Below the pieces are notes generated by a model. The model made no database searches. It was not told the origin of the DNA and saw nothing but the letters and a program-made list of their open reading frames with translations. This document shows, piece after piece, positions 10,850 to 14,781 of a stretch of 49,773 nucleotides of DNA. Origin of the DNA: Alphaproteobacteria bacterium. Its GTDB lineage: Bacteria; Pseudomonadota; Alphaproteobacteria; GCA-2731375. The DNA is taken from positions 1-49,773 of the forward strand of contig VGEV01000008.1 in NCBI GenBank assembly GCA_016869175.1, read 5' to 3'. Position 1 is the first letter of the stretch; every line of letters begins with the position of its first letter. A program made the translations under genes and the position numbers.

Positions 10850-12028
10850 ATGAATCCCATCGCGCAATTGCTGCTGTTCGTCGCCCTTTCGGGTCTGGCC
10901 TTCGGCACGGCCGTCGTCGTGCCGGCGAGCGAGCCGGTTTCGCGCATCCTGACCGCCGCCGTCATTCTGCTGGCGGGCGCGCTGGGTCGCGAGGCCTAGC
11001 TGCGCCGGCAGGACGGCGAGCAGTTGCTGGCCGAGCAGCGCCAGCGGATGCGCGAGCAGAGCCAGGACGACGAGTCGCTTTGGCAGGGCCAGCGCATGCT
11101 GGCCGACAAGGTGACGGCCCTGGAGGAGCGCCTGGGCCAGCTCAACAGCTCGGCGCATGAACGGATGATCGCCGAGATGCGGCTGTTGCAGGACCAGCTT
11201 GCGCATCTGGCCGAGCGGCGCGCCGCCGGTCCGCCCCGCGCTGCGCCGAGCCCGAGCGGCGGTTCGGGCTTGGTCGACGAATTGCGCCAGAGCCTGGAGG
11301 ACAACCGCATCGACCCGCACCTGCAGCCGATCGTCAGCTTGCCACAGTGCAAGCGACGCTACTACGAAGCCTTCTCGCATCTGCGAACCGGCGCCGGCGA
11401 GGCGTTGCCGCCGGAACGCTACCTCAAGCTGGCCGAGGACGCCGGCCTGATGCTCACGCTCGACAATCTGTTGCTGTTCCGCTGCGTGCAGCTCGTGCGC
11501 CGCATGAAGCCGCGCAACCGGCATACCGGCTTCTTCGTCAATCTGTCCCCGCGCTCGCTGTCGGATGCGGCCTATATGGAACAGTTCGTCGAATTCCTGC
11601 CTGGCAATGCCGGGCTGGCCGAGGTGCTGTTCTTCGAGGTCGGCCAGGCCACCATGCGCCAGCACTGGCGCGACGCCGAACCCTATCTCGAGCAGCTGGC
11701 CGAACTCGGCTTCCGGTTCTCGCTCGACCGGGTCGAGCGGCTGGACCTCGATTTCGAACTGCTGGCTCGCCGGCGCTTCAAGTTCGTGAAGGTGCCGGTC
11801 GGCCTGCTGCTGGCCGGGGCGCAAGCGCCAGGTGCGGGCATCCACCCAGCCGATCTCAAGGAAGCCCTGCGGCGCAACCAGATCGACCTGATCGCGGAGA
11901 AGGTCGAGAACGAACGCAGCGTGCTGGAGCTTCTGGAACTGCAGGTCGACTTTGGCCAGGGCTTTCTGTTCGGCCAGCCGCGGCCGGCGCGCGAGTCGGT
12001 CGAGCGGCCGGAACTGGCGGTCGGTTGA
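10850..12028 (+). pseudogene. tipF: TipF-like EAL-domain gene interrupted by in-frame TAG
   Basis: Read as one frame from ATG 10850, the product would have two N-terminal membrane segments (LLLFVALSGLAFG and ILTAAVILLAGALG), a charged coiled-coil (LAEQRQRMREQSQDDE onward) and a C-terminal EAL domain, the architecture of TipF, which positions flagellar assembly in Caulobacter. A TAG at 10997-10999 (codon 50, between REA and LRRQDGEQ) interrupts it. The frame is otherwise intact on both sides, and a single change to CAG would restore glutamine. It may be a recent nonsense mutation, a sequencing error, or a gene split into two translated parts. Confidence 0.65.
11024..12028 (+). CDS. EAL-domain protein, surviving 3' part of the TipF-like gene
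   Basis: If translation restarts at TTG 11024 (or ATG 11048), this yields about 334 residues of soluble coiled-coil plus EAL domain without the membrane anchor. The EAL signature itself is altered (YYEAFSHLR in place of EALLR), and other catalytic motifs are diverged (SLDRVERLDLD, FVKVPVGLLL). It is therefore likely a c-di-GMP-binding or scaffold domain rather than an active phosphodiesterase, as described for TipF. No convincing ribosome-binding site precedes either restart codon. The HAD-IIA gene follows after a short gap. Confidence 0.6.
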   Translation: MLAEQRQRMREQSQDDESLWQGQRMLADKVTALEERLGQLNSSAHERMIAEMRLLQDQLAHLAERRAAGPPRAAPSPSGGSGLVDELRQSLEDNRIDPHLQPIVSLPQCKRRYYEAFSHLRTGAGEALPPERYLKLAEDAGLMLTLDNLLLFRCVQLVRRMKPRNRHTGFFVNLSPRSLSDAAYMEQFVEFLPGNAGLAEVLFFEVGQATMRQHWRDAEPYLEQLAELGFRFSLDRVERLDLDFELLARRRFKFVKVPVGLLLAGAQAPGAGIHPADLKEALRRNQIDLIAEKVENERSVLELLELQVDFGQGFLFGQPRPARESVERPELAVG

Positions 12029-13037: not shown

Positions 13038-13176
13038 AGGGCGATTGCCGTTCCCATCGAACCGGTAGGTTCGGTTTGAACGGAATCCATTGCCCTGCAA
13101 CCGCGACGGCTGCGCGATGGGCTCCGACCAGATGGTATCGCGATCAGCGATTCCATCTGATCGGACACCGCGCTAG
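13038..13176 (+). repeat. interspersed two-stem-loop repeat, copy 1
   Basis: A 139-bp member of a family also at 20258-20395 and 40976-41116. Stem-loop 1 pairs CCGTTC..CGAACC with GGTTCG..GAACGG; stem-loop 2 pairs CCGACCAGATGG with CCATCTGATCGG. The right end ACACCGCGCTAG is identical to the other copies, and its CTA is the TAG stop of the CheZ-like gene on the minus strand. The left end reads CCAGGG where the other copies have CTAGGG. It lies between convergent genes, so a bidirectional 3'-end or terminator role is plausible. Confidence 0.9.
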
Positions 13177-14153
13177 TTGAACAGCGCGTCGATATCGGCC
13201 TGCGAGGCCTTTTCGCCGCCGCTGGGTGTCGGCGGAGGCGGCGCCGGCTTGGCAGCGGGCTGGCTGGTGGTTTTCGCCGCGGCTTTCTTCGCGGCCGCGG
13301 TCGCACCCTTGGCCGGCTTGCCAGCAGGCTTCGCCGCAGGCGACTGCGCGCTGGGCTCGGCCGTCAGCGCGGGCGGCGTTGGCGCGACCGCTGGTTTGGC
13401 ATCCGGCGGCGAGGCCGCCGCCGCGGGCAAAGCGGCCTCGTCCGGCCCCTCGGCGACGGCCGCTGGCGAGCCCGCCACGGTGTCGGGCGGCGACGGCGGG
13501 GCCGCCGCTGCCGCCAGGGTGGCGGCGCCCAGCAATTCGTCGACCGCCGATTGGTCGATGCCTTCGCCGGCCAGCGCCGGGCCGTTCAGCAGTGCCGCGT
13601 CGCCTTGCGGTGCGGCCTGCGTCTCGCCTTCGTCGGCAATGTCGGGTCCCCAGGCGCGGTCGAGGCTGTTCAGCCGCTCCTCGATATGCGTCAGCGTGGC
13701 AACCACCTTGGAGATGCGCTGGCCGGTGATGTCCTGGAACGAGCACGCCTCGATGATGCGCAGGCAATGGTCGTTGACCTGCGCGCAGTAGGCTTGGGCG
13801 TCCTCGCCGTCCAGCGCCATGATCTGCTCGGCCGCGCTCATGATGGAATCGGTGGCTAGTTCGGTCGCCTGGACGATCGCCTCCAACTCCATCCCGGCCC
13901 GCGGGATCTTCTCTTTTTTCAGGTCGTTCGGCCGCATCTGGGCAATCTCCTGACGCGCCTGTCCAATATGCGCCGACAGATTGCGCAACTCGCGATAGAT
14001 CTCGACATCGATCGACGCGAAGAAGCGCTGCGTGGCGGCGATCAGCACCTCGGTCACCGAGGCGATGTCGGCAAGCCCGACCGCGGCGCCTCGATCGGCG
14101 CGCAGATGATCGACCAGCCGCTCAATCGAGCCAGCCAGTCGGCTGGCGTCCAT
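13173..14153 (-). CDS. CheZ-like chemotaxis phosphatase
   Basis: A 326-residue protein: a helical N-terminal half of about 170 residues, a long Ala/Pro/Lys-rich linker, and a C-terminal SQADIDALFN. The active-site helix SFQDITGQRISKV holds Asp141 and Gln145, spaced as in the CheZ catalytic pair (Asp143/Gln147 in E. coli). The C-terminal peptide resembles the CheY-binding N-terminus of FliM (SQ-x-EIDALL) and probably binds the receiver. The ATG overlaps the stop of the CheY-like gene as ATGA, so the pair is coupled. Its own stop lies inside repeat copy 1. Confidence 0.83.
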   Translation of the reverse strand: MDASRLAGSIERLVDHLRADRGAAVGLADIASVTEVLIAATQRFFASIDVEIYRELRNLSAHIGQARQEIAQMRPNDLKKEKIPRAGMELEAIVQATELATDSIMSAAEQIMALDGEDAQAYCAQVNDHCLRIIEACSFQDITGQRISKVVATLTHIEERLNSLDRAWGPDIADEGETQAAPQGDAALLNGPALAGEGIDQSAVDELLGAATLAAAAAPPSPPDTVAGSPAAVAEGPDEAALPAAAASPPDAKPAVAPTPPALTAEPSAQSPAAKPAGKPAKGATAAAKKAAAKTTSQPAAKPAPPPPTPSGGEKASQADIDALFN

Positions 14154-14539
14154 CAGAATTCTCCCAGCACGGCGCTTATCTTGGTCTTCAGCGTCTGCGC
14201 GTTGAACGGCTTGACGATGTAGCTGTTGACCCCGGCCTGTTTGGCGGCGATCACGTTCTCGGTCTTGCTTTCCGCGGTGACCATGATGAAGAGAGTCTTG
14301 TTCAGCTTCTCGTCGGCTCGCACCTCCTTCAAGAGGTCGTAGCCGGTCATCGGCTGCATGTTCCAATCGGAGATCACCAAGCCATAGGGCTTCTGCCTCA
14401 TCTTGGACAGCGCCTCGGTCCCGTCCGAGGCCTCGTCGACATTGTCGAAGCCCAACTGTTTCAATAAGTTGCCGATGATGCGCAGCATCGTCTTGTAGTC
14501 ATCCACGATGAGGATTGGCATCTTCTTGTCGACTGACAT
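14153..14539 (-). CDS. CheY-like single-domain response regulator
   Basis: A 128-residue stand-alone receiver. Asp13 and Asp14 form the acidic pocket, Asp58 in VISDWNMQPMTG is the phospho-acceptor, and the switch region is MVTAESKTENV with lysine in YIVKPF. The N-terminus and the DWNMQPM sequence are typical of chemotaxis CheY. An AGAGGGA site fixes the ATG. Coupled to the CheZ-like phosphatase downstream; no receptor or kinase is in the window. Confidence 0.9.
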   Translation of the reverse strand: MSVDKKMPILIVDDYKTMLRIIGNLLKQLGFDNVDEASDGTEALSKMRQKPYGLVISDWNMQPMTGYDLLKEVRADEKLNKTLFIMVTAESKTENVIAAKQAGVNSYIVKPFNAQTLKTKISAVLGEF

Positions 14540-14781
14540 GGCGTCCCTCTGCCAGATCAAGAGGTGATCGGTTTGCGGTGCAGCGGCTACTGGCTCGATC
14601 GAGGCTAGGCGCCATATTCAAAAGTTCCGTTAAGGCCGGGGGTTGTGGGCGGTCCGGGCGGCGGCTATAAGGGCGCCGCCTTGTTGCAATGCAAAATGCA
14701 CCAGCCTTTCTTCATGCTTCTCAAACCCGCCTGGAATTAGCGTAACCCCTCGCACGCTTGGCCCCATAAAAGGGAATTGGC

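Follow-up and report, generated by a model that had tools for sequence, protein, structure and literature searches.

An in-frame amber codon interrupts a tipF orthologue in an alphaproteobacterium whose assembly lacks flagellar structural genes

Our results indicate the presence, in an alphaproteobacterium (GenBank assembly GCA_016869175.1), of a tipF orthologue that is interrupted by one in-frame amber codon. The gene lies on the forward strand at positions 10850-12028 of the window, by which we mean the whole stretch of 49,773 nucleotides of contig VGEV01000008.1 that was analysed, and it runs from an ATG start to a TGA stop. We consider it likely to be a recent nonsense pseudogene that arose after the flagellum had been lost. 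The flagellar genes would have been lost first, by deletion, and the nonsense mutation in tipF would have come later, an order that we infer. Once there was no flagellum, there would have been no selection to keep TipF, and a nonsense mutation located after the second membrane segment would end translation at residue 49, leaving no membrane-anchored TipF. The EAL frame would still look intact because the break is young. The flagellum would then be missing from the organism and not merely from its assembly, and the remnant of tipF would presumably not be translated.

The amber codon (TAG, 10997-10999, forward strand) is codon 50 of the frame that begins at ATG 10850, and the frame is otherwise open, on both sides, to its TGA at 12026-12028. 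The initial annotation had described a single in-frame amber codon without other damage, and this description holds. Upstream of the stop, 49 codons (10850-10996) encode two hydrophobic segments, which hydropathy places at residues 1-19 and 22-40 and which are predicted to be membrane segments; downstream, a coiled coil and an EAL domain are encoded in the same open frame (11000-12025), in which coding periodicity is kept and the GC3 is 0.87, similar to that of neighbouring genes. This layout, which had also been read from the DNA at the outset, is borne out by hydropathy, by Pfam and by the 47 orthologues described below. Chance long open frames are common in this GC-rich DNA, with antisense ones of more than 500 codons listed, so the open frame alone is little proof of a gene and the proof comes from homology.

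The part of the gene after the stop matches the Pfam EAL domain (PF00563, E 8e-40). Its best NCBIfam match is TipF (NF051880, E 1.9e-78, the next model reaching 1.4e-16), with a score of 264 bits that stands against a whole-protein cut-off of 600, the N-terminus having been left out of the query. For the peptide of 49 residues before the stop, homology is found to the TipF N-terminus of family member G014, the nearest orthologue (Z 6.1, 0 of 1000 shuffles reaching the score), with weaker support from two other TipF N-termini and none from more distant ones. Both halves therefore belong to one ancestral gene. On this evidence from homology, 10850-12028 is a true tipF orthologue, with the features of the TipF family present in the DNA frame even though the TAG splits it.

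Comparison was made with 47 orthologues, 10 from the family of the host and 37 from genome contigs, mostly of Caulobacterales. All 47 encode the membrane segments, the coiled coil and the EAL domain as a single chain; none of them has a stop at the position of the TAG, and none starts naturally after it (0/47), which rules out a natural downstream start. The comparison with close relatives that had been proposed as a check shows this stop in the host alone, and the identification of the gene as TipF-like is upheld by the NF051880 match, by the single-chain architecture and by a shared gene order. The TAG is a disabling change that is absent from the orthologues, as in a pseudogene, and at 10997-10999 it breaks the continuous frame for a membrane-anchored protein that is found in a functional TipF. 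The proposed origin of the stop, a transition from CAG (Gln) to TAG, finds no support: the aligned column holds V, I, F or L in nearly all of the 47 relatives, A or S in four, and Q in none.

The gene order around tipF is also conserved. Immediately downstream lies its conserved neighbour, a HAD-IIA hydrolase gene (TIGR01459, 12050-12949, forward strand), followed on the reverse strand by genes for a CheZ-like phosphatase (13173-14144; PF04344, E 1.8e-12) and a CheY-like response regulator (14153-14560; PF00072, E 1.5e-28; best NCBIfam match CheY), so that the CheY/CheZ-like pair noticed earlier in the window is real by these profile matches. The order tipF, HAD hydrolase, CheZ/CheY on the opposite strand, MaoC and ribF is identical in family member G013, and the order tipF, HAD, MaoC and ribF is common to Caulobacterales too (loci compared: L125, L037 and L044).

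The initial annotation had suggested that an unanchored EAL domain, or none, could affect flagellum placement or motility. This consequence fits the host poorly, which probably has no flagellum left to place, because flagellar structural genes are absent from its assembly. Genome-wide profile searches found no match for FlhA, flagellin, FliM or the Flg_bbr_C axial protein in the whole assembly (285 contigs; 100% complete by marker estimate; 0.13% contaminated), and of FlgI only a 43-residue fragment at the very end of a contig. The absence of a single marker is weak evidence, as FlhA was missed in G014, a genome that has FlgI, FliM and flagellin; that four flagellar families are missing together from an assembly estimated to be 100% complete is far stronger evidence than one. 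When 2.3 Mb of the host genome (59%) were compared with the flagellar-cluster proteins shared by two relatives, none of these proteins matched in full. Masking in the assembly was considered as a cause of the missing genes and rejected, as the 2.0 Mb of the host genome that were checked contain no runs of N. At the expected place of the flagellar cluster, the search for a clean deletion scar yielded no syntenic empty site.

The FlgI fragment (L130:2-133, at the end of contig C13) is about 77-82% identical to relatives and is cut off by the contig end. It directly adjoins the 3' end of a putative dienelactone-hydrolase-like gene, as judged by inspection of the sequence, and no other flagellar structural trace was found in the assembly. 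It is either a remnant of a deletion or a chimeric contig end.

Several observations speak against a pseudogene formed after loss of the flagellum. The host keeps an intact Che operon, with a ChpT-like phosphotransferase, CheA, CheW, CheY, CheB and CheR (L244:937-7325, contig C114), together with about three chemoreceptors (the number is higher in 10 of 14 relatives, with a maximum of sixteen matches) and the CheY/CheZ pair, a complement that would be unusual if motility had been lost long ago. A flagellar region may have escaped assembly, as the FlgI fragment at the contig end could indicate. The draft, in 285 contigs, has gaps, since tRNA-Tyr and tRNA-Ile are not among the 38 tRNA genes found, and may therefore lack a flagellar replicon.

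The distribution of tipF in the family of the host is consistent with a link to flagella. The sample comprised 15 genomes including the host, and the order-level survey covered the same 15. A family profile search for tipF recovered the full-length frame from ten genomes; the frame is split in G008 and carries the TAG in the host, and G001, G009 and G012 gave no clear tipF. Flg_bbr_C is present in 10 of 10 genomes with intact tipF versus 2 of 5 with a broken or absent one (Fisher p 0.022), a correlation drawn from a small sample of incomplete drafts and from species that are not independent. An apparent internal TAG in the tipF of G014 proved to be the stop codon at the end of that gene, which the alignment had included. 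In G008 (L129, G008:C15:4817-6096), tipF has a frameshift in an A-rich stretch, and the genome has FlgI and flagellin; either the draft is in error here or this tipF is broken too. G001 and G009 are without tipF, CheA, FlhA, FlgI, FliM and Flg_bbr_C, with flagellin matches or fragments remaining, a pattern suggesting that motility was lost independently or that the drafts are incomplete.

The break does not appear to be old. Tajima counts of unique changes for the EAL domain of the host versus that of G013 or G014, with Caulobacterales as outgroup (24 v 27, 26 v 30, 21 v 23 and 22 v 27), reveal no accelerated evolution, and the neighbours HAD, MaoC and RibF behave alike; this test gives no sign of an old pseudogene. 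Of 57 near-invariant EAL positions, 52 are conserved in the host, and those changed are mostly at 148-177. At the start of the EAL domain (window 11291-11380), the substitutions A148S, L156P, Y157H, R167C, T169R and R177H (readthrough numbering) are seen, the rest being well kept. The frame has thus probably been under selection for nearly all its history. The lack of acceleration in the EAL domain implies that the TAG is recent, or is an assembly error, or that the remnant is still used.

That the TAG is an error of base calling, assembly or strain mixture, with the gene intact in the organism, is unlikely, even if the lack of accelerated evolution in the EAL domain would suit it. The host is the single genome of its genus in the sample, so the TAG has been seen once, which also weighs against the pseudogene, as does the hardly eroded EAL domain. 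The frame is otherwise undamaged, and a draft in 285 contigs, one of which has a possibly chimeric end, leaves room for mistakes. Against an error stand the high completeness and low contamination of the genome, the rarity of single-base substitution errors in consensus assemblies, and the loss of flagellar genes, which is an independent reason for tipF to decay.

We regard as improbable a restart of translation at the first possible codon after the stop, TTG 11024-11026, or at the next candidate, ATG 11048 (both on the forward strand), giving a soluble coiled-coil/EAL protein selected for a non-flagellar c-di-GMP role. The unaccelerated EAL domain, its 52 conserved positions and the coding periodicity kept after the TAG would agree with such a protein, as would an AGGA at 11010-11013 (forward strand), 10 nt before the TTG. 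Restart signals this weak would be expected by chance, however, in DNA so rich in GC, and no orthologue lacks the membrane segments; several conserved residues are changed at the start of the EAL domain, and the conservation would follow just as well from a recent mutation. A cell that dropped its flagellum and keeps a restarted, soluble TipF EAL domain with the Che pathway, for a non-flagellar function in c-di-GMP signalling or polarity, is more doubtful still.

In this host TAG is a normal stop, since it ends four genes near tipF (those of PEPCK, glutathione peroxidase, the HAD hydrolase and CheZ) and no tRNA with a CTA anticodon is among the 38 tRNA genes found, a list that is incomplete; these two observations also speak against a suppressor tRNA or amber recoding. 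Readthrough of the TAG to a full-length TipF is thus very improbable, in spite of the frame being open on both sides and of the strongly folding mRNA stretch in which the TAG lies (z -2.6): no relative has a stop there, and such a fold score is unremarkable for RNA so rich in GC.

Studies in Caulobacter have shown that TipF is enzymatically inactive and that its deletion reduces motility and attachment (PMC3764195). The protein is stabilised by c-di-GMP binding, is placed by TipN and brings the first components of the flagellum to the pole (PMC10212136). In non-flagellated Caulobacteraceae, tipF was lost with other c-di-GMP regulators, and its co-loss with flagella occurred in two lineages (PMC12700997). 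The recent nonsense mutation that we favour would make the host tipF an instance of this known process, the joint loss of motility and of the c-di-GMP regulators that serve it, rather than a new system. It would show the flagellum-placement machinery early in its decay, with the structural genes apparently gone, the Che genes still intact and the polar recruiter disabled by a single stop.

The host gene resembles the tipF of Caulobacter crescentus (CC0710, NF051880) in its two N-terminal membrane segments, coiled coil and degenerate EAL domain, and its locus resembles those of Caulobacterales in having the HAD hydrolase, MaoC, ribF and ileS as neighbours. It differs from the gene of C. crescentus in being cut by a TAG after the second membrane segment, and the host assembly is without flagellar structural genes. 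A non-functional tipF in a lineage without flagellar genes is what has been described for Phenylobacterium immobile and Acaudatibacter (PMC12700997); in those lineages nothing is left of tipF or of the flagellar and chemotaxis genes, whereas our host keeps a one-stop remnant of tipF together with its Che genes.
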